From positions 1-30,906 of IMG/VR virus record IMGVR_UViG_3300009433_000029: DNA of 30,906 nucleotides. The stretch is one strand, 5' to 3'. Below are positions 10,358 through 22,240 of this stretch, one piece after another. The translations under genes were made by a program, and so were the position numbers. The DNA comes from a virus. Position 1 is the first letter of the stretch. Each line of letters starts with the position of its first letter. The notes under the pieces are model-generated. The model had not been told where the DNA came from and did not search any database. It saw only the letters and a program-made list of their open reading frames with translations.

Positions 10358-13300
10358 ATGGCAAACATTCAAAGAAATTTTATCGCTGGCCGTATGAACA
10401 AAAGCCTTGACGAAAGGCTTGTTCCGAATGGTGAGTATATTGATGCTTTAAACGTAAGGCTAGGCTCTACAGAAGGTTCTGAAGTTGGTTCAGTTGAAAA
10501 TTCAAAAGGAAATACATCTTTAAGCACTTTAATGTTTAACGATGTTGAATTAAGTAATAACGCCAGGTGTGTAGGCGCTTACGAAGACGGAGCAAATGAA
10601 ACTATATATTGGTTTGTGCATGACCCATCTTTTCCATCAGGCTCTACAAGTAAGTTAGATTTAATTGTATCTTATAATACAAATGATAATTCAATAACAT
10701 ATCATGTTATTAGTATTAATGACGGAACTAATTTAAATACTACTTTAAATTTTAGCACTTATCATTTAATAACCGGTGTTAATTTAATAGATAATAAACT
10801 TTTATATTTTACGGACAATTTAAATCCTCCACGATACATAAATGTAAACAGAAGGTATAGTGTTCCGGTAAATAATTTAGATAGTTTTAGTGCAGAATCT
10901 ATTTTAGTAATAAAAAGACCTCCCATTGAGTCTCCTACAATTCAAACAATTAATGTTTCAGGTCAAGAAGATGATTTTTTAGAAGAAAGATTTATATCAT
11001 TTGCTTATAGATATAAATATGCTGACAATCAATATTCTGCAACTTCACAGTTTAGCGAGGAAGCGTTTACTCCGAGCTCATTTAATTTTAGCTACAATAG
11101 TTATTTAAATGAAGGAATGCAAAATACTAAGAATGCTGCAATTATTACTTTTAATTCAGGAAGTTCATTGGTTGAGGGTATACAATTATTGTTTAAAGAA
11201 TCTACAACTAATAATATAAAAGTTATAGAGTATTTAGATAAAAGTAATCTAGGATATTCAAACAATACTAACTACACTTATACGTTTGATAACAGTCAAA
11301 TATTTACATTATTGCCTGATTCAGAATTACTGAGGCTTTATGATAATGTTCCTTTAATAGCTAAATCCCAAACTTTAATGGGTAACAGGCTTATGTACGG
11401 AAATTATAAAGATGGATATAATTTAACTGATAAGTTTGAAGAAGATATAAGGTTAGAATTTTCAGCAGGTATTAATTCAACAGTAATAGATATTTCTGAT
11501 TTGTTAGATTCTACAGGAGCAGGGAATTATACATACGGACCAACTCCCGTAACTGTAAATGATTGTGTAGTCTATTTTGATTTATCTAATCAAAATGGAA
11601 CTACATTAGAATTAAATGCTGGCTCAAGTATTACATTAGATTTTAATATCCAGCATAGTCAATTTACTGGAACTACGCCTACTTCACAAACAGTAAGCAC
11701 TAGCATAGTGTTTGATTACACTCTTCCCACAAATTTCAATAATGTATATGGTTTAGCAACAAGTACCGATTTTATTGAAAAAATAGGAACTGTAGCTAAT
11801 ATTCAAACCGTCACTAATGCTTGCAACGGTTCTACTTTAACTGACCAGGTTAATTGCGCATTGCCTTCTACTCTTGGAACATATACTAAAACAGCAAGTG
11901 GTATAACTGCTTCAGGACAACCTATAAATATAATAGCCTCTCCAGCAAGCAATACAATTGGACTGCAAATTATAGCTATGAATTATGTAGACGGTGCTAA
12001 CAATTCGTATGAGTTTTATTCTGTTAATAGTGCTGTCGCTTCTTTTTCTACTGCAAATTCTCCAAAAAGTTTACATAGCAATAGAGGGTATGAAATAGGT
12101 ATAGTGTATATGGATAATTTTAATAGAGCTTCTACAGCTTTAGTGAGTCCTAATAATTCTGTACATATTCCTTGTTCTAGCTCAATAAATAAAAACGATA
12201 TAAGAGCGACAATACCAAGTCAGCAATTAGCTCCTAGCTGGGCAACTCGCTATAAGTTTGTAATAAAGCCCTCAGAATCTACTTATGATACTATATATAC
12301 AAGTATTTATTTTGAAGACCCTCTAACTAATTCAACATATTTTTTATTAGAGGGTGAGAACGCTAATAAAGTAGAAGAAGGAGATAGATACTTTGTAAAG
12401 TCTGATAGCAATGGTCCTATACTAAGATGCGTAGAAGCTACTGTTTTAGAGAAAGAAGTAAAATCAGCAGATTTTTTAAAAGATGCTTCCGGAGCTGCCA
12501 TTACTTCTCCATCTGGAACATACATGAAAATTAACCCAAATAATTTTTCTACTGTTCGTGGTGATAATGATATTATAACTCCGGGTTCAGACACGGCGAT
12601 TCAAAATAGTGCAAATAATTTTCCTATACTTTCATACCCCATGAATCTAGCTGACCCAGCAAATCCTGGTCAGTTTTTAGATTATGATGTTCCTGCGGGC
12701 AGTAGAATTGTTATATCTATAAGACAAGAGAGATTAGGTGTTGGTAAAGGTAATGCAAAGTGTGAAAGAAGAATAAGCACATTAAATGTAGAGTTTGTGT
12801 CATCTACTACTTATTCAAATATGCAGGATTGGTGGAATGGAGACAACGCTCAAGTAGCATTAGACGATGCAATTACAGAAGTCGGAGGAAACACGGGAAG
12901 CATATTAAATGTATATGAATCAGCTCCAGCCACTTCTAAAACTGATATATCAACTGCTGAAAGCACAAATTATTATAAATTTTATAGAGAACAAAATCCT
13001 GCTGGAGGAGATGGAGAGTTATCATTACTTATTACAGGTACTGTAAGATGTGGAGGCACATTGTCAAGAGCAAAAAGACGCTCTACAGTTACAGCGGATA
13101 TACAAATATATAGAGCCGATTCTATTTTAGTATTTGAAACACAACCTACTGATGCGCTTCCTAATGTATGGTATGAAAACCACTTATCTTTTCCTATAAG
13201 TGCAGACGGAATGCATACAGGCAATGTTCAGACTCAAACATCTAGTCAATCAGCTATTATAGACACAGAGTTTTCTAACTGTTATGTGTTTGGAAATGGA

Positions 13301-15580
13301 GTAGAAAGTTATAAAATATTAGACTCTATAACTGGTAAAACTAAAAACTTAGGAGAGCGTGTTACTTCAACATCCAATATGAATTATAAGGAAGAACACC
13401 GTTTTGCCGACATAACTTATAGTGGAGTATATAATGATGAAACCAACGTAAATAAACTTAATGAGTTTAATTTAGGGCTTCTTAATTTTAAACCACTAGA
13501 AGAGTCTTATGGACCTATTCAATTATTAGATGGTAGAAAAACAGATATACTTACTTTACAAGAAGATAGAATATCTTATGTATTAACAGGTAAAAATTTA
13601 TTAAGCGATTCTACGGGTGGAGGAGCAGTAACATCTGTTCCGGAAGTTTTAGGAACTCAAATAGCTAGAATAGAAGAGTATGGTGTTAGTGAAAATCCTG
13701 AAAGTTATTCATCATGGGGGCCTAATAAATATTTTACTGATGCAAAAAGAGGTGCTGTAATAAATCTAGTTGGCAGCTCAATGAGAGACGAACAGCTTCG
13801 GGTTATTTCAGAAGCTGGAATGAGAGGATGGTTTAGGGATTTATTTATACAAACTTTTAATACTCAAAAAATAGGTGGATTTGACCCTTATATGAATGAG
13901 TATGTATTGCATTCAAATGTTCAGCTACCTATAGTGTCAGAAGATTGTTTTCAATGCAACACTACAAGAGATTTAACAATTTTACCAGGGCAAACTGTAA
14001 GTTATTGCGTGGAGTTAGGTGATTTATTAGGTCTAGTTAATATAGATTTTGTAATACCTTTTCAAGGTTTTGATAATATTGTTACTGAATCTAGTCAAAA
14101 TACAGTAACTGAAACAAACAGTAACGATATAGTTTCTGAAACTACAATAAGCGGAGTAGGATACACTATTACAGCGGTTTACAATAGCGTATCTCACACT
14201 ACCGGCGTGGTGTTTCAAGACGGTACATTGACTTTTAATAAAAATGTTGTTACTACAGATACTGTTCAAATAAATATATCACACGATAGCTTATCAGCTC
14301 AAACAATAGATGTTACTGCTGGCTGTCCTCAGGCTGCAACCATGACTGTATTTAATGTTTCAATAACCAGTAATGCTGATGCGTCTCAAAGAATTACAAA
14401 TATATATAGGTGGAGTGACGGCGGGTTTAATTCACCACCTAAAAACACATCTGTTACTTTTGGAAATAGTACTACTAATCCTATAGTGTCACAATATTTA
14501 CAAGAAGCAGGGCAGCAAGGAGGAGGGTTTATTCCGGGAGATGGAGCAATAGTTTCTATTATAAGTAAAAAAGAATCTACTGATGATTTTGTATTTGACC
14601 CATCTAAAAATAAATTTAGATATCTTAGAACTGGAACTTTTTACGATAATAATGGTACTGACATAAACGCTTTGTTGGCGGCATCAACTAATGTTACTCC
14701 TATATCAAGTCAAACTAACCCAGACCAATATTCAGCAAGTTTTACTTTGCCTGCTGGCGGTAATTTTTTATATTTAATTTGGGACTATAGACAGTCTAAT
14801 TCACAAAAACTTTGTTATTCAACAACAAGCACTACAGATGCTTGTACAGGGTGTACTTTTCCACCTACACCTGTTCCGACAGCTCCAGTACCGGTAACAC
14901 CAGTATATCGATGGTTAATTGAACCAGGAACGGGTAGCTCTACAAGCCCTACATCGTGTCCCTCAGCCTCTGTAGCTCTTTATAGTTTTTCTAGTTCGTT
15001 TGCTACTACATATGCTAATAGCACATTCTTCTATACAGATGCAGCATTAACAACAATATTTCAAGGAGGAAATAATTATTTTGGAGTAAGAGAGCCTAAT
15101 CAAGGTTATGGACAGTCACAGGGAATTTTTAGAATGACAGATTTAGGAACAGCTTCTAATATAGATACAGCTGGGGTTTGTAATCCAAATCCAACGCCTG
15201 TGCCTGTGCCTGTGCCTGTGCCAGCGCCAGTAGCGCCTAGCCCTGTGCCTGTACCTACAACTCCTGTACCAGCGCCAACAACAAGCACCACGGCATTTAC
15301 TATGACAAGTATTAATGTATATTGGAGCAGTTATTTAGATGCTTGCGTTAATGGGCCTAGCTCTTCGACACAAACCTATTATCATAGTGGTAGCGGTGCG
15401 TGTCCAGTGGGCGCAGATTACATTTATACAGATGCGGCAGGAACAACCTTATTAAGCAGTGTTACTAATACATTTGGTAAAGTGTGGTTTATTCCGCCTA
15501 GTGTTTGTTTACCAAATGGGAAAGCTGTAGAAATAAGTCCAGGCTCAGGTTATATTTATGGAGAAGGTATTTGTAATTAA
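10358..15580 (+). CDS. Giant tail hub / muzzle-like protein with Pro-linked C-terminal modules
   Basis: 1740 residues. The N-terminus (FIAGRMNKSLDERLVPNGEY, followed by IDALNVRLGSTEGSEVGSVE) is the hallmark of the P22 gp10-like DNA-stabilisation/hub family (PF11134-like) used as the tail muzzle in crAss-like phages. The body is long and beta-rich, fitting a propeller fold, with GGFDPYMNEYVLH near residue 1170. After about residue 1190 it changes to Ig-like beta segments. From residue 1502 the style changes again: Pro linker (about 1502-1517), small Cys-ending module (to C1608), second Pro linker (about 1609-1648, alternating V-P and A-P), and a last module ending GEGIC-N. The same module type recurs in the proteins at 15590 and 19976. 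The C-terminal extension is probably exposed and may take part in receptor binding; this is inference. Confidence 0.8.
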   Translation: MANIQRNFIAGRMNKSLDERLVPNGEYIDALNVRLGSTEGSEVGSVENSKGNTSLSTLMFNDVELSNNARCVGAYEDGANETIYWFVHDPSFPSGSTSKLDLIVSYNTNDNSITYHVISINDGTNLNTTLNFSTYHLITGVNLIDNKLLYFTDNLNPPRYINVNRRYSVPVNNLDSFSAESILVIKRPPIESPTIQTINVSGQEDDFLEERFISFAYRYKYADNQYSATSQFSEEAFTPSSFNFSYNSYLNEGMQNTKNAAIITFNSGSSLVEGIQLLFKESTTNNIKVIEYLDKSNLGYSNNTNYTYTFDNSQIFTLLPDSELLRLYDNVPLIAKSQTLMGNRLMYGNYKDGYNLTDKFEEDIRLEFSAGINSTVIDISDLLDSTGAGNYTYGPTPVTVNDCVVYFDLSNQNGTTLELNAGSSITLDFNIQHSQFTGTTPTSQTVSTSIVFDYTLPTNFNNVYGLATSTDFIEKIGTVANIQTVTNACNGSTLTDQVNCALPSTLGTYTKTASGITASGQPINIIASPASNTIGLQIIAMNYVDGANNSYEFYSVNSAVASFSTANSPKSLHSNRGYEIGIVYMDNFNRASTALVSPNNSVHIPCSSSINKNDIRATIPSQQLAPSWATRYKFVIKPSESTYDTIYTSIYFEDPLTNSTYFLLEGENANKVEEGDRYFVKSDSNGPILRCVEATVLEKEVKSADFLKDASGAAITSPSGTYMKINPNNFSTVRGDNDIITPGSDTAIQNSANNFPILSYPMNLADPANPGQFLDYDVPAGSRIVISIRQERLGVGKGNAKCERRISTLNVEFVSSTTYSNMQDWWNGDNAQVALDDAITEVGGNTGSILNVYESAPATSKTDISTAESTNYYKFYREQNPAGGDGELSLLITGTVRCGGTLSRAKRRSTVTADIQIYRADSILVFETQPTDALPNVWYENHLSFPISADGMHTGNVQTQTSSQSAIIDTEFSNCYVFGNGVESYKILDSITGKTKNLGERVTSTSNMNYKEEHRFADITYSGVYNDETNVNKLNEFNLGLLNFKPLEESYGPIQLLDGRKTDILTLQEDRISYVLTGKNLLSDSTGGGAVTSVPEVLGTQIARIEEYGVSENPESYSSWGPNKYFTDAKRGAVINLVGSSMRDEQLRVISEAGMRGWFRDLFIQTFNTQKIGGFDPYMNEYVLHSNVQLPIVSEDCFQCNTTRDLTILPGQTVSYCVELGDLLGLVNIDFVIPFQGFDNIVTESSQNTVTETNSNDIVSETTISGVGYTITAVYNSVSHTTGVVFQDGTLTFNKNVVTTDTVQINISHDSLSAQTIDVTAGCPQAATMTVFNVSITSNADASQRITNIYRWSDGGFNSPPKNTSVTFGNSTTNPIVSQYLQEAGQQGGGFIPGDGAIVSIISKKESTDDFVFDPSKNKFRYLRTGTFYDNNGTDINALLAASTNVTPISSQTNPDQYSASFTLPAGGNFLYLIWDYRQSNSQKLCYSTTSTTDACTGCTFPPTPVPTAPVPVTPVYRWLIEPGTGSSTSPTSCPSASVALYSFSSSFATTYANSTFFYTDAALTTIFQGGNNYFGVREPNQGYGQSQGIFRMTDLGTASNIDTAGVCNPNPTPVPVPVPVPAPVAPSPVPVPTTPVPAPTTSTTAFTMTSINVYWSSYLDACVNGPSSSTQTYYHSGSGACPVGADYIYTDAAGTTLLSSVTNTFGKVWFIPPSVCLPNGKAVEISPGSGYIYGEGICN
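15197..15220 (+). repeat. Six-base tandem repeat in a Pro-linker
   Basis: Four perfect copies of CCTGTG, encoding alternating Pro-Val in the second linker of the hub protein. Six-base units keep the frame, so slippage would change linker length without breaking the gene. Confidence 0.9.
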
Positions 15581-15589
15581 TTTTAAAAA

Positions 15590-16267
15590 ATGGCAACACT
15601 AGCAACATATTATTTTGATACAGCAAGTTTTACAAACGCAACAACGATTTATGATGATGCGAATTTATCAACTATATCACAAAACGGATGGTATTCCGAT
15701 GACAGTATTGTAAGGCAACAAATAAGCGGAGTTTTAATGGCGGGGCAATCGTGTAGTGTTCCTACTCCTGTGCCAACGCCTACAGCACCAATACCTGTGC
15801 CTGTACCTGCTCCAGCTCCAGCTCCTGTTGCTCCTAGTCCTGTGCCTAGTCCTGTAGCGCCTGTAGCGCCTAGCCCTAGTCCCACCCCTACTCCTAGTCC
15901 TGTAGCGCCTGTAGCGCCTAGCCCTAGTCCTGTACCTAGTCCAGTACCTACAGCTCCGGTGCCTGCTCCTATTGTACCTCCTAGTCCAACGCCAGTTCCA
16001 GTAGCCCCTAGTCCTGCTCCAGTAGCGCCTAGTCCTGTTCCAGCCCCAGTGGTTCAATGCTATAATTTATATGTGCAAAAAAGCAGTTCTACTGTGTGTT
16101 CAGGTAGTTATGGAAATTATTTCTTTAACGCCTCCAGTTTAAGCTCTGCTACTACTGCATATGCTAATAGTAGTTGTAATTCAAATGCTAGTGCTGGATA
16201 TTATACGCAAGGTCTTACATATAAATATTGGAATGGTTCAAGTTTTACATTGACAGGAAGTTGTTAA
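15590..16267 (+). CDS. Pro-rich tail protein: two small modules joined by a 97-residue linker
   Basis: 225 residues, starting 9 bases after the hub gene. Residues 1-55 and 157-225 look like two divergent copies of one small beta module: YYFDTASFTNATTIYDD versus YFFNASSLSSATTAYAN, each ending in Gly/Gln-Ser-Cys. Between them, residues 57-153 contain 44 prolines and otherwise only Val, Ala, Ser, Thr and Ile, in near-strict X-Pro alternation with SPSP, TPTP and APVAP motifs. This composition resembles arabinogalactan- and extensin-like Hyp-glycomodules of plants and algae and would be an extended rod. No signal peptide is seen, as expected for a virion protein. It is followed at once by a prolyl-4-hydroxylase-like gene. 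I take it to be an exposed tail fibre or hub accessory; it could also be a secreted or surface protein. Confidence 0.8.
   Translation: MATLATYYFDTASFTNATTIYDDANLSTISQNGWYSDDSIVRQQISGVLMAGQSCSVPTPVPTPTAPIPVPVPAPAPAPVAPSPVPSPVAPVAPSPSPTPTPSPVAPVAPSPSPVPSPVPTAPVPAPIVPPSPTPVPVAPSPAPVAPSPVPAPVVQCYNLYVQKSSSTVCSGSYGNYFFNASSLSSATTAYANSSCNSNASAGYYTQGLTYKYWNGSSFTLTGSC
15845..15930 (+). repeat. 38-base direct repeat within the Pro-rich linker
   Basis: A 38-base sequence at 15845-15882 recurs without mismatch at 15893-15930, offset by 48 bases (16 codons). It encodes PSPVAPVAPSPSP-type sequence. The in-frame period means that duplication or loss changes linker length only. It also creates substrate for recombination with the similar linker in the gene at 19976. 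Confidence 0.92.
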
Positions 16268-16285
16268 ATTTAATTAAATATAATT

Positions 16286-16885
16286 ATGATGCTAATAAAA
16301 GAAGAGAGGAAGTATGTTCCGTATGACCCTAGTCCACTACAGCCAATTACTAGAGCAACCAAAAAAGGTTTTCAAGTATTAGATGTGCCTCCAGCGGTAT
16401 ATAGTATACTTGTTGATTTTTATGACAGAGCTCAGTTTCAAGAAGAAAATTATCCAGGGAAGGAGGCTTATTCAAAACAAGTAAGTTTTTTACAAGACAT
16501 AAATCAACACCAAGATAAAGTAAATTTTATAAAATCAACCATGCTTGATTTACATCAAGAGTGGTGTCAAAGAGATTTAAACCCAGCTGTAGTTTATGGC
16601 GTAAGAAGTTATAGTAATAACACCATTTTTAATGCGCATTTTGACAGACAAGATACCCATCATGTTGCTTCTAGTATTACTCTTGGAAAAGATGCTCCTT
16701 GGAATTTAAATATTCAAGACCATGATAATCAGTGGTGGGGAGTAGATGTTGAACCCGGTCAAATGATTATGTTTGAATCTGGATGCTGTATGCACGGAAG
16801 ATTGGATAATTATCAAGGGACTTACTTTGACAATATATACACACACTTTACTTACGCAGAACCGTTTACTCCTTATGAAGGATAG
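16286..16885 (+). CDS. Prolyl-4-hydroxylase-like 2OG/Fe(II) dioxygenase
   Basis: 199 residues. The double-stranded beta-helix signature is clear in the C-terminal half: FNAHFDRQDTHH gives the iron-binding His118-x-Asp120, and CCMHGRLDNYQG gives the distal His170, after a typical DVEPGQMIMFES strand. The distal motif, an H-G-R followed by a Tyr-x-Asn-Ile-x-x-His-Phe strand, resembles proteins annotated as prolyl 4-hydroxylase-like in algae and marine microbes. The usual Lys ten residues after the distal His is not there (Tyr180), so 2OG anchoring must differ. Enzymes of this class hydroxylate protein side chains with O2, Fe(II) and 2-oxoglutarate. Being directly after a protein with a 44-proline linker makes peptidyl-proline a natural candidate substrate, but that is inference. 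Its end overlaps the next gene by 11 bases. Confidence 0.8.
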   Translation: MMLIKEERKYVPYDPSPLQPITRATKKGFQVLDVPPAVYSILVDFYDRAQFQEENYPGKEAYSKQVSFLQDINQHQDKVNFIKSTMLDLHQEWCQRDLNPAVVYGVRSYSNNTIFNAHFDRQDTHHVASSITLGKDAPWNLNIQDHDNQWWGVDVEPGQMIMFESGCCMHGRLDNYQGTYFDNIYTHFTYAEPFTPYEG

Positions 16886-17939
16886 ATATATATCTTTTGA
16901 TTGGTGGTGGGGTGGTTTTAATAATATTCGGATGTGCTATGAGATGGTTGGAGCTATGTCATATGTTTCAGGAAGAAAAATTATATTACCTCCTCTAGGG
17001 TATTGTTTATTTTTAGCAGAGCATCACGACAAAAAAACTTTTTGGGATATTTGGGAAATACTAGATAAAAAAGCGTTTACAGATAATTTTGATTGTATCG
17101 ATTATAAAGATACTGACCTTGTAAAATATTCTTCAGAGATACAAAACTATGATGGTATATGTAAAGACATTAAATGTGTAATGTTTAACGATACAGACAT
17201 AAACTGGGGTCCTCAAAAGTTTATAGGTAAAGGTCTTATATACCATAGTATAGAAGATATAAATCACTTTAACGAATTTAATTGTGACAACAGAGAATTT
17301 TTATATGATATTATGTGTGAAGATAAAATCATACATTTTCCTAGAAATTTATTGGGACATTTTGGATACCATGTATATCCTCCTAACGACAACGCAAGAA
17401 GGATAATACAGCAAAAAGTAAAAGATGGTATAAAGTTTAGAGAAGAGTTTTTTGTACAGTCAAAAAAACTTATGCCTGGCGACTATGACGCTGTGCATAT
17501 AAGAAGAGGAGATTTTAAATATACACAAACACAATGGACAGAAGACCTTTACAAGAATCTTGAAGCATTATTAGATGGAAGTGTCAGAAAATCAGTACCT
17601 TTATACATAGCAACTGATGAACCTGACTTATCAATGTTTGATTTTTTAAAAGAAAAATATAATACTATTTTTTTAAAAGACTTAACACAGTCTAGCAAAA
17701 GCCATGAGTTAGTTTTAGACACTATTATATGCGCCAATGCTAAAAACTTTTATGGCTCTAGGATGTCTACATATAGTGATTACATAAATATAGTTAGAGG
17801 CTACAATGGTGAAATAGACCATCACAGAAAGTCTTTAAACTTTGACAGAAAACAAATTCAATACAATAAATACCCTTGGGAATCAGAGCCCTACAACTGG
17901 CAAGACCTTTGGGGTGAATTATATTATGGCAAAATTTAA
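16875..17939 (+). CDS. Protein O-fucosyltransferase-like glycosyltransferase
   Basis: 354 residues from the ATG at 16875. An in-frame upstream extension (to 16773) only reads through the preceding gene out of frame and is rejected. The N-terminus has WWWGGFNNIRM and then SGRKIILPP, like the GGxNNxR entry of O-FucT enzymes. The donor-binding motif VHIRRGDF (His208, Arg210, Arg211, Asp213) matches the HxRRGD peptide common to alpha-1,2-, alpha-1,6- and protein O-fucosyltransferases. YIATDEPD (244-251) and GSRMSTYSDYINIVRG (294-309) complete the GT-B C-terminal half. The expected donor is GDP-fucose or a related nucleotide sugar; the acceptor may be protein (Ser, Thr or hydroxyproline) or glycan. 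No membrane segment is seen, so it acts in the host cytoplasm. It overlaps the genes on both sides by 11 and 14 bases. Confidence 0.8.
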   Translation: MKDRYISFDWWWGGFNNIRMCYEMVGAMSYVSGRKIILPPLGYCLFLAEHHDKKTFWDIWEILDKKAFTDNFDCIDYKDTDLVKYSSEIQNYDGICKDIKCVMFNDTDINWGPQKFIGKGLIYHSIEDINHFNEFNCDNREFLYDIMCEDKIIHFPRNLLGHFGYHVYPPNDNARRIIQQKVKDGIKFREEFFVQSKKLMPGDYDAVHIRRGDFKYTQTQWTEDLYKNLEALLDGSVRKSVPLYIATDEPDLSMFDFLKEKYNTIFLKDLTQSSKSHELVLDTIICANAKNFYGSRMSTYSDYINIVRGYNGEIDHHRKSLNFDRKQIQYNKYPWESEPYNWQDLWGELYYGKI

Positions 17940-19386
17940 TTTAGGAATACACGGGTCTCATAATGCAGCAATAGCTCTATCTTATGGAGGAGACATTCTT
18001 GAGGTAATAGAATTAGAAAGATGGGTGCAAATAAAAAATGCAGCATTTTTTTATTACCATCCCATACTTAACCCTATTGAAGTTTTAAATGAAATATTAG
18101 ATTACTTTGAATTAAAACACGGGGCAAAAGAATATGATTATGCTATGACAAACTCTTGGCCTCAAGAACACAATAAAGATTTAAGAGCTGCTAATGTATT
18201 GTATGTTCCACATCATGAAGCACACGCTTGTAATGTAATGTATCATTCAGAGGCTAAGGAATCTTTAATTGTTTCTTTTGATGGAGGTTCTGATAATGGT
18301 CATTTTAATATATATTTAGGTGAGAAAGGACAACATCCTCAACTTATACATCAATCAGAAAAAGATTTATGTGTTCCTTACGCTGCTTTAGGGCATTATA
18401 TGGGGGACATAACAAGAGAAAGGGATTGGTGGTTTGGTAATTTAACTTATGCCGGTAAAGCTATGGGGCTATCATCATATGGAAAAAGAGATGATGAAAT
18501 GTTTGGTTATGTAACTCGTTTATATGATATGAGTAACAGCAACGAGATAGATAAAGCTCATAAAAATTGGTCAGAAATGTTTTGTGGTTGTCATCAAAAA
18601 GATGAAAAATCTAAAGACCTTGCCTATGCTAATCAGTATATGTTTGAAAAAAAGTTTGCAGATATTGCATTGCCTTTTATATTTAAATATCCAGATAGAG
18701 AAATACAGTTTGCTGGCGGCGGCGCTATGAATATATTAAACAATACCACATATAAAGCTTTTGTTTCTCCTAACTCAGATGATAGAGGTATAGCATTAGG
18801 GTGTTTATTAAGTTTAATTAAACCTTCTGAGCCTGTAGACAGCACTTACTTAGGCTCTGAACCATACGATGATATACCTGAAGGTAAAGATATAAGTGTA
18901 GGCGAAGTGTCTCAAATGTTATTACAGGGTAAAATAATAGGATTAATACAAGGACGAGCAGAACACGGTGCTAGAGCTTTAGGAAATCGCTCTATACTTT
19001 GCACACCCAAACAAGGAGTAAAAGAAAGATTAAACTCAGAGGTAAAAAATAGAGAGTGGTTTAGACCTTATGCCGGAGTGTGTAGAGAAGAAGATGCCCG
19101 TCAATATTTTAAGTCTTATGGCAGGCACAGGTGGATGACTCACAATGTAAAAGTAAAAGATAGTCGGTTTCCTGGAATAACTCATGTAGATAAAACTTGT
19201 AGGCTTCAAACAGTTACTGAAAAACAAAATAAATTTATATATGATTTGCTAGAGTATCACCCTGTATTATTAAATACCTCTTTTAATATTCAAGGCAAAC
19301 CAATATTAAACACTTATAAAGAAGCTATGTGGATGAAAGAAAACACAGGAGTAGATGAAGTAATAACCGATAAATATATATTATAA
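17926..19386 (+). CDS. NodU/TobZ-family O-carbamoyltransferase
   Basis: 486 residues from the ATG at 17926; the longer in-frame opening (17842) lies in the previous gene. These enzymes transfer a carbamoyl group from carbamoyl phosphate, via carbamoyl-adenylate, to a sugar hydroxyl. The Kae1-like N-domain shows LGIHGSHNAAIAL (6-18), the metal-binding HHEAH (96-100), SFDGGSDNGH (117-126), GKAMGLSSYG (177-186), AGGGAMN (263-269) and PNSDDRGIALG (282-292). The YrdC-like C-domain shows GRAEHGARALGNRSI (343-357), WFRPYAG (378-384) and LNTSFN (449-454). All key family motifs look intact and the length is only slightly under the usual 520-600. In this operon the natural acceptor is the sugar added by the preceding glycosyltransferase; alternatives are lipopolysaccharide or capsule sugar, or hydroxymethylated DNA. 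Confidence 0.9.
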   Translation: MAKFNLGIHGSHNAAIALSYGGDILEVIELERWVQIKNAAFFYYHPILNPIEVLNEILDYFELKHGAKEYDYAMTNSWPQEHNKDLRAANVLYVPHHEAHACNVMYHSEAKESLIVSFDGGSDNGHFNIYLGEKGQHPQLIHQSEKDLCVPYAALGHYMGDITRERDWWFGNLTYAGKAMGLSSYGKRDDEMFGYVTRLYDMSNSNEIDKAHKNWSEMFCGCHQKDEKSKDLAYANQYMFEKKFADIALPFIFKYPDREIQFAGGGAMNILNNTTYKAFVSPNSDDRGIALGCLLSLIKPSEPVDSTYLGSEPYDDIPEGKDISVGEVSQMLLQGKIIGLIQGRAEHGARALGNRSILCTPKQGVKERLNSEVKNREWFRPYAGVCREEDARQYFKSYGRHRWMTHNVKVKDSRFPGITHVDKTCRLQTVTEKQNKFIYDLLEYHPVLLNTSFNIQGKPILNTYKEAMWMKENTGVDEVITDKYIL

Positions 19387-19928
19387 TGTTAAAAAAAATA
19401 AAATTAGATTATGATTGGAGTTATTTTTTACCTCCAATGCAAGATTATTCAGTTCATAAAGGAACTTGTTTGGCGCATCAGCTTGATGAGCTAACAGACA
19501 TACACGAAGAGTATGGGCTAGGAGAAACGTATACTAAAGATAATACTGTAATTCAGCAGCTATGGTACACAGACAAACAGGTAGATTTTAAAGACTTAGG
19601 AAAACAAACTGGAATGGAAGTAATTACTATCTCTAGTATATTACAGCCTCCAGGAAATACAATTGCTTTACATAGAGATACTTTTTTTCAAATAAACAAA
19701 AGGTTTCCTGATGACAAGAGAACAAAGGTAAGGGCTAATATATATCTTGAGCCTTGGAAAGTTGGACATATGTTACAGTACAAATCTGAAGAAGATAATA
19801 TTTGGAAAACATCCGATAATTGGAACGCTGGAGATGGCTATATATGGGATTCTAAACCGCTTCATTTATCAGCAAATGCAGGTATGAAAGACAAGTATAC
19901 TCTTCAGATATCAGGCTTCTTGCTCTAA
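19386..19928 (+). CDS. Second 2OG/Fe(II) dioxygenase-like protein
   Basis: 180 residues; its ATG shares a base with the previous stop (TAATG), so translation is coupled. Core motif: LQPPGNTIALHRDTF gives His96-x-Asp98, a beta-strand pair follows (VRANIYLEPWKVGHML), and WDSKPLHLSANAG gives the distal His160, with Lys170 exactly ten residues later as the probable 2-oxoglutarate carboxylate ligand. It is quite different in sequence from the dioxygenase at 16286 and is closer in layout to aspartyl/asparaginyl-hydroxylase-like and small phage 2OG enzymes. The substrate is unknown: a protein side chain or the sugar made by the neighbours are both possible. It is the last gene of the cassette; a promoter for the following tail gene lies 15 bases beyond its stop. 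Confidence 0.72.
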   Translation: MLKKIKLDYDWSYFLPPMQDYSVHKGTCLAHQLDELTDIHEEYGLGETYTKDNTVIQQLWYTDKQVDFKDLGKQTGMEVITISSILQPPGNTIALHRDTFFQINKRFPDDKRTKVRANIYLEPWKVGHMLQYKSEEDNIWKTSDNWNAGDGYIWDSKPLHLSANAGMKDKYTLQISGFLL

Positions 19929-19942
19929 AAGATGCAAGCAAT

Positions 19943-19958
19943 TAAATTTGTAAATTTG
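19943..19958 (+). promoter_or_regulatory. Tandemly duplicated -7 element before tail gene
   Basis: Two adjacent copies of TAAATTTG (19943-19950 and 19951-19958), both exact TAnnTTTG matches, in the 47-base gap before the ATG at 19976. A TTG at 19920-19922 lies 20 bases before the first copy and could be its -33 box. It would uncouple this tail gene from the enzyme cassette. Confidence 0.6.
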
Positions 19959-19975
19959 TAGTTAAATAAATCCGT

Positions 19976-21808
19976 ATGGCTTTTTATTATGAATTTACTC
20001 GCTGTGATGATTCTAGCATAAAAAATGATTGGACGTTTCCAGGGAATCCTCAGCTAAACATTTTTGATGTATATTCTATATATGGATATTGTTGGCAAGT
20101 AACAGCTTTAAGAAATAGCGGACAACAAGTAGTGTCCAGTGCCTACTATGGGTTAAATGGTTGTTCTCAATGTACAGCCCCTACACCCGCACCATCGGCT
20201 ACGCCTCCTACTTCTTATTTATGGCAATTTAATCAAGTTCAAGGAAATGGTAGTTTTGTAAAACCTACCTCTTGTACTAATTGTCCAGTAACTGTATATT
20301 CTGATGTAAATAGTTATAGCAATGTGGTATGCGGTACACAGCACTTTTGGTTAGATGCAAGTCTTACTACTCCATTTATAGGAAGCAATCAGTTTTATAT
20401 AGCTACTCCTGGCAGTACTCCTGCTACAGGAACAGGAATGCTTTTAATTGAAAATAACGGCACAGTAACAAACAAATACGACTGCAATGGAGCTAATATA
20501 TGTTTTGGTCCAGCGCCTAGTCCAGTGCCTACAGCTCCATCCCCTAGTCCAGTGCCTACAGCTCCAGTACCTTCTCCTGTACCAGCACCTGTAGGTCCAA
20601 GCCAACCTGAATATTGTTTACAATCTACAAATGCGGTAACTATAGAAAATATTGGAGGAGTAAATAAATATGTATTTGGAGGTAATTATGGCTTATATGG
20701 TAGTGGAACAGGAATTTTTGTTTTTACAAGCGTTCCGTCTTCACATCCTATAGCTTTTCAAAATTATGGTAAAACATCTACAATAGATTATGAAGGTCAA
20801 TTTAGTGTAGGAACTAAAACTGGACAAGACGGAAACACCTATGAATATTTTTATGGAGATGTAACGCTTACGGTTACCGGAGCTTACGGTGTTATTGGTT
20901 ATGAGTGTTATTATCATGGATACATGGGTGGACAAAACAATTTAATGTATGATAATGTTATTTGCCCAAACTTACAGCCGCCAATTATACCACCTCAAGG
21001 AGACCCTTCACTTCAATACACTTTAACTTATAGTGACACAGCAAAAGGCTGGCCTTCGTTTTATTCTTACTTCCCAGATTGGATGATAGGAATGAATAAT
21101 TACTTTTATTCTTTTAAAGGAGGTAACTTATTTAGACACAATACCAATGAATTAAGAAACAATTATTATAATGTTCAGTATAATTCAACATTAACAAGTG
21201 TGTTTAATGATATGCCATTAGAAAATAAATTATTTAAAACTATAAATTTAGAATCAGATAAGGCTTGGTCTGTAACCTTAGATAGTGACATACAAACTGA
21301 TGCAAGCATAGATTATACATGGTTTGAAAAGAAAGAAGGGGCGTGGTTTGCTTTTGTAAGAAACAATGGAACACTTCCAGCTCAGACAAAAGAATACCCT
21401 ATGCGCTCAGTAAATGGTATAGGCAGAAGCACTTCGGTAAGTGTAGTAGGAACGAGCACTATAATTAATTTTGCAACAGACCCTTTAATAGCTATTGGCA
21501 GCGACCTTAGTGTTGGCGACATTATATACTTTGCGCCTCCTCCATATAGCGCAGTAGAAATGGCTGGTCAAGTAACGGCAATAAACATAGACTTACAAAA
21601 CAATACCAACAACATTGTTATTGATAATTCTATAACTGGAGCAGTAGCTATATCCCTACAGGATGGGTTTATAATGTACATTAAGAATCAGCAAGCTGAA
21701 TCAAATGGAGTATTAGGACATTACTGCTTGTTTACAATAACAAATACAGATAGCACAGCTACTGAGTTATTCGCAGTAGAGTCCGAAGTAATGAAAAGCT
21801 ATCCCTAA
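19976..21808 (+). CDS. Tail protein with Pro-linked modules and a cupredoxin-like domain
   Basis: 610 residues. Order: small module 1-66 ending CSQC; short Pro linker 67-79; module about 80-177 (FWLDASLTTPFIGSNQFY, cf. FYTDAALTTIFQGGNNYF in the hub protein); Pro linker about 178-210; cupredoxin-like beta domain about 211-331; conserved-looking virion domain from about 345 (GWPSFYSYFPDWMIGMNNYF, then FKGGNLFRHN) and a beta region to the end. The cupredoxin call rests on His257 in SSHPIAFQNYG and on Cys311, His314 and Met317 in YECYYHGYMGG, the type-1 copper ligand spacing of amicyanin (Cys-x2-His-x2-Met). The C-terminal domain probably anchors the protein to the tail and the N-terminal chain is exposed. 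A receptor-binding or tail-fibre role is inferred. It has its own promoter element. Confidence 0.8.
   Translation: MAFYYEFTRCDDSSIKNDWTFPGNPQLNIFDVYSIYGYCWQVTALRNSGQQVVSSAYYGLNGCSQCTAPTPAPSATPPTSYLWQFNQVQGNGSFVKPTSCTNCPVTVYSDVNSYSNVVCGTQHFWLDASLTTPFIGSNQFYIATPGSTPATGTGMLLIENNGTVTNKYDCNGANICFGPAPSPVPTAPSPSPVPTAPVPSPVPAPVGPSQPEYCLQSTNAVTIENIGGVNKYVFGGNYGLYGSGTGIFVFTSVPSSHPIAFQNYGKTSTIDYEGQFSVGTKTGQDGNTYEYFYGDVTLTVTGAYGVIGYECYYHGYMGGQNNLMYDNVICPNLQPPIIPPQGDPSLQYTLTYSDTAKGWPSFYSYFPDWMIGMNNYFYSFKGGNLFRHNTNELRNNYYNVQYNSTLTSVFNDMPLENKLFKTINLESDKAWSVTLDSDIQTDASIDYTWFEKKEGAWFAFVRNNGTLPAQTKEYPMRSVNGIGRSTSVSVVGTSTIINFATDPLIAIGSDLSVGDIIYFAPPPYSAVEMAGQVTAINIDLQNNTNNIVIDNSITGAVAISLQDGFIMYIKNQQAESNGVLGHYCLFTITNTDSTATELFAVESEVMKSYP
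20516..20566 (+). repeat. 24-base direct repeat in Pro-linker
   Basis: A 24-base sequence at 20516-20539 recurs exactly at 20543-20566, offset by 27 bases (9 codons), coding PSPVPTAP. The first 23 bases match 15935-15957 in the other Pro-rich gene with a single difference, so the two genes share linker DNA. Confidence 0.9.
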
Positions 21809-21829: not shown

Positions 21830-22240
21830 ATGAAATTAAATATTAGACCACTTGAAGAGTCTGACTATGAGCAGATTTTAGTAGGTTGGTGGAAAGATTG
21901 GAAATGGGAAGCGCCTGTTAAAGATTTTTTACCAGATGAAGGTAAAGGTGGTTTAATAGTTTATGATGAAAAAATACCTGTTTGTGCAGGATTTATATAT
22001 ATGACAAATTCAAAAGTAGCTTGGGTAGATTGGATTATTTCTAACAAAAATTATACTGATAGGGCTAACAGGAAGGCTGCTTTAGCTTTGTTAATTGACG
22101 CTCTTACTAGAGTAGCGCAAAGCGCAGGAAATAAATTTACATACGCCCTTATAAAACACGATGGTCTTATTAAAACATATGAAGAGCTGGGTTATATTCA
22201 AGGAGATAGTTACAATAAAGAAATGATAAAAGTATTATAG
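21830..22240 (+). CDS. GNAT-like acetyltransferase-fold protein
   Basis: 136 residues. The layout fits a small GNAT fold: N-terminal beta strand and helix (NIRPLEESDYEQILVGWWK), a central strand pair (GGLIVYDEKIPVCAGFIYM, then SKVAWVDWIISN), a loop and helix where the acetyl-CoA pyrophosphate is normally held (DRANRKAALALLIDALTRV, about 77-95) and a last helix-strand with YEELGYI, the common GNAT ending. The canonical Q/R-x-x-G-x-G/A loop is degenerate, so catalysis is uncertain. Similar small proteins recur in virion modules of marine Bacteroidetes phages. The substrate is unknown; given the location it may act on a virion or host protein, or have a structural role. One base separates it from the next gene. 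Confidence 0.65.
   Translation: MKLNIRPLEESDYEQILVGWWKDWKWEAPVKDFLPDEGKGGLIVYDEKIPVCAGFIYMTNSKVAWVDWIISNKNYTDRANRKAALALLIDALTRVAQSAGNKFTYALIKHDGLIKTYEELGYIQGDSYNKEMIKVL

Follow-up and report, generated by a model that had tools for sequence, protein, structure and literature searches.

Why would a phage keep, within its tail module, enzymes that recall a hydroxyproline and sugar chemistry whose best-known examples are the cell walls of plants and algae? The question is raised by positions 14,861–21,808 of the IMG/VR virus record IMGVR_UViG_3300009433_000029, whose entire 30.9 kb (30,906 nucleotides) are referred to below as the window. The region holds part of a gene set of the type known for hydroxyproline-rich glycoproteins (HRGPs), namely, a (S/A/V/T)P tract and a hydroxylase-like gene, accompanied by genes of putative sugar-modifying enzymes. 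From the observed gene content and order, iron ligands, family assignments, and co-occurrence, we infer all reactions, substrates, and virion roles considered here; taken together, these observations make it likely that the locus is a phage cassette decorating the phage's own tail linkers by prolyl hydroxylation and subsequent glycosylation.

Three tail-type genes, all on the plus strand as is the rest of the cassette, encode proline tracts: a virion structural (tail) protein of 1740 amino acids (10,358–15,580; phrog_14478, E 8e-226), a 225-residue protein with short modules around a proline tract, which is the proposed main substrate (15,590–16,267), and a muzzle-type tail protein (19,976–21,808; PF25729 crAss_MUZ_C, 58.6 bits; phrog_38031). 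Four enzyme genes lie between the second and the third of them, with neighbors overlapping by 1 to 14 bases. These are a 2-oxoglutarate (2OG)-Fe(II) oxygenase with a domain that we call P4HC, the proposed prolyl hydroxylase (16,286–16,885; HxD...H pattern, predicted fold, phrog_2954); a glycosyltransferase of the O-fucosyltransferase (O-FucT) superfamily with the HIRRGDF motif (16,875–17,939; matching almost the full length of PF10250 at E 8e-12); a NodU/TobZ-type carbamoyltransferase (17,926–19,386; PF16861, PF02543, phrog_1601 at E 4e-99); and a second 2OG-Fe(II) oxygenase, OG2, with a putative accessory role (19,386–19,928). The coordinates, the proline-rich tail-type genes, and the four overlapping enzyme genes given in a preliminary description of the locus were all confirmed, and the enzyme genes are intact. 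It had also listed three adjacent tail-type genes; all three indeed carry tracts, but they flank the enzymes, and the third one is of the muzzle type.

Five proline tracts are spread over the three proteins. Two are near the C-terminus of the 1740-residue protein (14,861–14,905, seven prolines in 15 residues; 15,185–15,283, 15 in 33), and two are in the N-terminal part of the muzzle-type protein (20,177–20,209, a short tract with five prolines in 11 residues; 20,513–20,608, 14 in 32). The central tract, within 15,590–16,267, has the 44 prolines reported previously, in 98 rather than 97 residues; 42 out of 44 fall within AP (15), VP (11), SP (11), or TP (five) pairs. Chance origin of the tracts was rejected, as the peak density of 14 prolines per 30 residues exceeds that in every one of 200 sequences simulated from the window with a first-order Markov model (mean 6.6, maximum 9). 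In the comparison with the related locus L004, one tract proline is replaced and 39 are preserved, in 20 cases by way of a different codon, while 13 out of 47 other aligned tract residues are replaced. Since prolines are retained despite codon changes while the intervening residues drift, proline is conserved at the level of the protein. By eye, short modules with YFD...L.T-like motifs are also seen to recur in all three tail proteins, where the proline tracts connect them, i.e., in 15,590–16,267, in the C-terminal part of 10,358–15,580, and in the N-terminal part of 19,976–21,808.

The terminase, portal, capsid-region, and tail genes of the window match phage PHROGs, and the 1740-residue protein is homologous to proteins of Cellulophaga phi19:3-type and Flavobacterium elemo phages, where they are annotated as structural. 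We assign the window to crAss-like phages by the PF25729 muzzle domain and the homologous structural gene. Given the muzzle domain and the relatives of the tail protein in Cellulophaga and Flavobacterium phages, the host is probably a member of Flavobacteriia. Downstream of the muzzle gene, at 21,830–22,240, is a gene of a GNAT-like protein (phrog_17252, with a weak match to the acetyltransferase phrog_1249), which holds this place in most relatives, with the cassette or without it.

Association of the hydroxylase with proline-rich tail proteins

If the enzymes act on the linkers, the hydroxylase and the tracts should be found together in other phages. Related loci were collected by scans with the tail protein (best 80 of 600 or more matches), with P4HC (at least 78 loci), and with a prolyl 4-hydroxylase (P4H) domain that precedes P4HC in most relatives and is here called the N-domain (at least 80 loci). 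The tail-protein sample of 80 loci includes 36 that span the region from the tail to the muzzle gene. A genome survey of this kind was proposed in the preliminary description, and the expected co-occurrence of the cassette with proline-rich tail proteins is indeed seen in these crAss-like relatives: both a hydroxylase gene between the tail and the muzzle gene and a tract are present in 10 out of 36 loci and neither in 26 (Fisher p 4e-9, relatedness ignored). In all scans combined, 76 out of 104 tail-to-muzzle loci have both and 28 have neither; because this set includes loci picked via P4H, the share of loci with both is uninformative, and the concordance is what matters. After dereplication, 38 complete crAss-like loci have both, 21 have neither, and none out of 59 is discordant.

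The enzymes from the scans form 69 clusters at 90% identity (eight named records, L154–L161, are omitted from these counts, but the tree discussed below includes L159 and L160), and 59 of the clusters have at least 1.5 kb of upstream sequence, the 10 with less being omitted. A proline-rich open reading frame (ORF) is located immediately 5' of P4H in 46 out of 59 clusters, within three same-strand genes in 51, and elsewhere in the locus in one more (52 out of 59); within three genes, it is found in 44 out of 44 crAss-like clusters and in seven out of 15 others. Of the seven clusters scored as lacking such an ORF altogether, L228 is one only because its tract, just 5' of P4H, is rich in QP, and the contigs of L104, L105, and L110 stop 3.5–5.2 kb upstream, with a proline-rich fragment at the edge of L104; the remaining three, L229, L176, and L194, are considered below. 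In L109, the tract is on the opposite strand. Based on the tail-only sample, the upstream placement, and the dereplicated concordance, we rejected the explanation that a host-derived auxiliary metabolic gene happened to land near the tail genes.

The pairing occurs in four backbones, none of which has a non-cassette protein in common with another (28 loci clustered): the crAss-like one; L104–L111 with L178; L109, L177, L228, L269, and their kin; and L349–L422. The last one came from a proline-first scan by tract DNA, which yielded 120 stretches, 33 of them without a proline-rich ORF; 55 of the remaining 87 have at least 2 kb downstream, and 32 have less. P4H is two or three ORFs away from the tract in five out of 55 loci, all of them below 42% GC (five out of 23 such loci). 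These five carry genes of a GDP-mannose-dehydratase-type epimerase, GT60, radical SAM, or FucT-like proteins, and one of them, L355, has the gene order proline-rich ORF, P4H, radical SAM, PF11397 in common with the crAss-like L015. On balance, we favor the view that unrelated marine phage lineages have independently paired proline-rich tail proteins, a prolyl hydroxylase, and swappable glycosyltransferases, which would yield hydroxyproline-linked variable glycans at the tail tip. If so, hydroxyproline-linked protein glycosylation would exist in bacteriophages, and probably in bacterial hosts too, and many marine viral "P4HA" genes would be accounted for.

Hydroxylase and glycosyltransferase families

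The iron ligands of P4HC, H99, D101, and H151 (HxD...H), are invariant in 20 out of 20 aligned sequences, and the motif was found in 64 out of 69 clusters, the five misses including truncated ORFs. For the predicted structure (pLDDT 88.6), the five best Foldseek chains all are prolyl hydroxylases, headed by 4iw3, 4j25, and 6t8m (Pseudomonas P4H and Dictyostelium PHD; E 1e-7, TMq 0.54–0.64). In 55 out of 69 clusters, a two-domain protein has the window-type domain as its C-terminal half; in 13, this domain stands alone, and one contig has the N-domain only. The N-domain, with H92, D94, H161, and K171 (HxD...H...K) invariant in 15 out of 15 sequences, retrieves prolyl 4-hydroxylases in the PDB profile search (E 7e-39; of nine PDB sequences matched, eight have E values of at most 1.3e-24), including the Chlamydomonas enzyme (2jig, and 3gze with a (Ser-Pro)5 peptide) at 4e-27. 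By its invariant residues and these matches, the N-domain of the relatives is a canonical prolyl 4-hydroxylase, and it is absent from the window. The search of five window-like records (29–65 kb) gave no N-domain match, nor did its positive control. The preliminary description of the first 2OG gene as P4H-like holds for the HxD...H pattern, but the encoded domain is the C-terminal companion of the canonical P4H domain rather than that domain itself.

Can P4HC work without its partner? In L177, L180, L184, L195, and L024, neither the N-domain nor OG2 was seen in the locus, and P4HC is nonetheless located beside a proline tract and a glycosyltransferase; because such loci keep both, we think that P4HC hydroxylates proline by itself. 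The ferrochelatase label of phrog_2954 was rejected, as the iron-ligand pattern and the predicted fold are those of 2OG enzymes; PHROG 3531 is labeled likewise, probably in error given these features of the window member. Of 50,697 phage records, 82 match the two-domain enzyme, none of them over 80% of its length, and the PF13640 search, limited to the window record, gave no match.

The O-FucT-like and NodU-type families named in the preliminary description are supported: the window O-FucT scores 45.8 bits with PF10250 (curated cut-off 31.5), and the carbamoyltransferase scores 159.4 bits with PF16861 and 41.5 bits with PF02543, both above the cut-offs, with PDB matches to 7xb6 (1.3e-30) and TobZ (1.7e-23). 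PDB sequence searches with OG2 and the window O-FucT gave nothing meaningful. Among 62 P4H clusters with at least 2.5 kb downstream (seven out of 69 have less and were omitted), a recognized glycosyltransferase follows in 58, and its family varies: like HPAT (hydroxyproline arabinosyltransferase) alone in 16 clusters, PF04488-type alone in 13, O-FucT alone in 11, PF11397 alone in six, O-FucT with PF11397 in eight, PF11397 with PF04488-type in three, and PF11397 with HPAT-like in one. No recognized glycosyltransferase was found in four out of 62, L176, L194, L205, and L197. Tailoring genes in the cassettes encode radical SAM proteins, a DegT aminotransferase, GDP-mannose-dehydratase-type epimerases, and a protein with a weak sulfotransferase match.

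Two of these families are relevant for the acceptor of the sugar. The Skp1-type PF11397 neighbors of phage P4H match their family at 1e-32 to 7e-78. The HPAT-like family comprises 46 ORFs, and three out of eight scanned exceed the PF23452 cut-off of 23.9 bits (L037, 30.7; L180, 28.5; L269, 25.2); L178 and L177 are just under it, and L023 and L045 give no PF23452 match. The printed sequence of L179 equals that of L177, and L179 enters the count of the alignment scan alone, where four out of six members match. The N-terminal domain of the 910-residue enzyme of L111 looks HPAT-like by eye, with no Pfam match. The window itself has no HPAT, and these hydroxyproline-related families are found only in its relatives. 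In 81 loci of at least 8 kb that lack P4H, there are no HPAT-like or PF04488-type genes and seven carbamoyltransferases; PF11397 occurs once (L102) and O-FucT three times, all on contigs cut inside a cassette.

Members of PF10250 act on Ser and Thr, and the tracts are rich in both, so it is possible, if rather doubtful, that proline is hydroxylated and the sugar is placed independently on Ser or Thr in or near the linkers, as in O-fucosylation; however, relatives of HPAT and PF11397 fill the same slot in other phages. Far less probable, indeed very unlikely, is hypermodification of the phage DNA by base oxidation followed by addition of a sugar and then a carbamoyl group. Phage TET-type oxygenases accompanied by glycosyl- and carbamoyltransferases are known to act on DNA; still, the N-domain groups with P4H and not with TET, the glycosyltransferases come from protein-modifying families, and the genes are in the tail module. 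The Tet_JBP search matched none of six related records, and its positive control matched nowhere either.

The N-domain scan of genome contigs produced 11 loci; in two cellular Bacteroidota contigs among them, L306 (a marine Bacteroidetes single-cell genome) and L309 (a Saprospiraceae bin), the two-domain enzyme is followed by a fused O-FucT/PF11397 protein of roughly 1500 residues. The cassette may come from such Bacteroidota hosts or be common to them.

Proposed role of the cassette and points against it

Decoration of the linkers might proceed as follows. The three tail proteins would be synthesized with polyproline-II-type (A/V/S/T)-P linkers, whose prolines would be hydroxylated in the host cytoplasm by P4HC (in most relatives, fused to the canonical P4H domain), with the use of O2, Fe(II), and 2-oxoglutarate. 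The glycosyltransferase would then place a sugar, in the window likely a deoxyhexose given the O-FucT-type enzyme, on hydroxyproline or neighboring Ser/Thr, and the NodU-type enzyme would carbamoylate a sugar hydroxyl; OG2 may oxidize the glycan or another residue. Modification would take place before or during tail assembly, and the likely gain would be linkers that are stiff and shielded from proteases, together with a glycan that varies at the muzzle. The protease-resistant or variable tail surface is a guess; the variable glycan fits the data, as glycosyltransferases and tailoring enzymes are swapped while the hydroxylase and the tract persist, a pattern that would fit a surface glycan under diversifying selection.

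Several observations weigh against this role. P4HC has no match to Pfam 2OG families at E up to 1 and no P4H among its 14 PDB sequence matches at E up to 10; profile comparison of P4HC with the N-domain, made with shallow alignments, detects no relation, nor do comparisons of either with OG2. In the fold comparison, other 2OG enzymes tie with the prolyl hydroxylases: VIA-align gives Z 15.1 for 4j25, 15.3 for 6n1f, and 14.8 for BesD. As the sequence tests (Pfam, PDB, N-domain profile) failed, we do not file the gene 16,286–16,885 as a member of P4H, only as one whose product would work like it. The tail-protein tree needs only two P4H changes, and thus the crAss-like association amounts to two events, i.e., retention of the pair throughout a clade plus a single additional change, as opposed to numerous separate gains. 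Proline tracts without P4H are seen in 50 out of 55 proline-first loci; with P4H in only five, the hydroxylase predicts the tract, but the tract does not predict the hydroxylase. In L229, P4H and FucT are outside the tail module, and in L176 and L194 P4HC is present with no proline run and no recognized glycosyltransferase. The O-FucT family and GT60 would not by themselves prove a hydroxyproline acceptor. In the cyanophage S-SCSM1 (L154), genes of 2OG, O-FucT, and carbamoyltransferase enzymes are grouped with those for the synthesis of GDP-fucose at 86,795–119,760, and the sole PxP run found in this phage is short and about 70 kb away from the set. Finally, OG2, whose HxD...H ligands are invariant in 23 out of 23 aligned sequences (model pLDDT 91.8), is present in many phages without proline tracts or P4H; the preliminary description counts it among the set, and the idea of a tie between OG2 and proline linkers was dropped. 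OG2 is widespread in marine phages outside the cassette, often beside radical-SAM-like genes (L117, L126, L137, L142, L148).

Some of these points would suit another explanation, in which the tracts are plain stiff linkers and the enzymes make or alter a glycan of the host surface or one that excludes superinfection, as is presumed for the cell-wall genes of cyanophages; the S-SCSM1 set is filed among such genes by its authors (PMC9602691). The frequent tracts without P4H and the occurrence of OG2 without tracts agree with it. On the other hand, P4H and the tract are either both found or both missing in 59 out of 59 crAss-like loci, the enzyme genes belong to the tail module, and the partner that stays constant is a canonical peptidyl-prolyl hydroxylase domain, so that we regard this explanation as unlikely. 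The original proposal of hydroxylation followed by glycosylation of the phage's own linkers gains from the concordant loci and from the relatives of two glycosyltransferase families with known action on hydroxyproline, and loses from the tracts that have no cassette.

Marine viral metagenomes are rich in prolyl hydroxylases. The viral use of prolyl 4-hydroxylase "remains cryptic" according to a survey of the Baltic Sea (PMC9301287), and in a structure-based annotation survey, the prolyl hydroxylase EGLN3 is the human protein most often matched by phage proteins (PMC12774648). The loci considered here suggest the phage's own tail linkers as the substrate. If this is true, phages would have eukaryote-like glycosylation of hydroxyproline, with modular sugars readable as variation of a tail-tip antigen or receptor, and would be a source of prolyl hydroxylases and hydroxyproline glycosyltransferases working in the bacterial cytoplasm.

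Comparison with known systems

In the open-access literature searched, no phage system for hydroxyproline glycoproteins was found to be described. A similar phage gene set is that of S-SCSM1, with a homologous O-FucT (33%) and a P4HC-like enzyme; it differs from the window in that its set is not beside a proline-rich gene and is filed under host metabolism and cell-wall genes (PMC9602691). In glycosylated mycobacteriophage virions, as proposed for the window, phage glycosyltransferases are thought to decorate the virion. These phages, to our knowledge, have no described prolyl hydroxylase or proline tracts.

Chlorella virus PBCV-1 reportedly encodes a prolyl 4-hydroxylase, for which Eriksson and coauthors are said to have proposed proline-rich viral peptides as substrates in 1999; a cited communication reportedly found PBCV-1 virions to be without hydroxyproline. 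The viral P4H and the proline-rich viral peptides are the shared features, whereas PBCV-1 is an algal virus, and we know of no linked glycosyltransferase cassette in it.

A cytoplasmic pathway of the proposed kind exists for Skp1 of Toxoplasma and Dictyostelium, where a prolyl hydroxylase (PHYa/PhyA) acts first and GNT1 then adds a sugar to hydroxyproline (PMC11570480). PF11397 enzymes beside phage P4H make the two alike; unlike the long repeats in the phage, the Skp1 pathway modifies one proline of one regulatory protein, and the window has O-FucT instead. We take GNT1 to be the enzyme that defines PF11397.

In plants and green algae, the hydroxyls that P4H introduces into (S/A/V/T)P runs serve as sites of O-glycosylation (PMC4132260). 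Compared with these HRGPs (P4H, HPAT, and arabinosyltransferases acting on extensins), the phage proteins belong to the virion and do not pass through a secretory pathway, the phage glycosyltransferases are different and exchangeable, with no HPAT in the window, and hydroxyproline in the phage proteins is predicted. The two systems are alike in that the phage N-domain matches the algal P4H and a phage glycosyltransferase family matches PF23452 HPAT.

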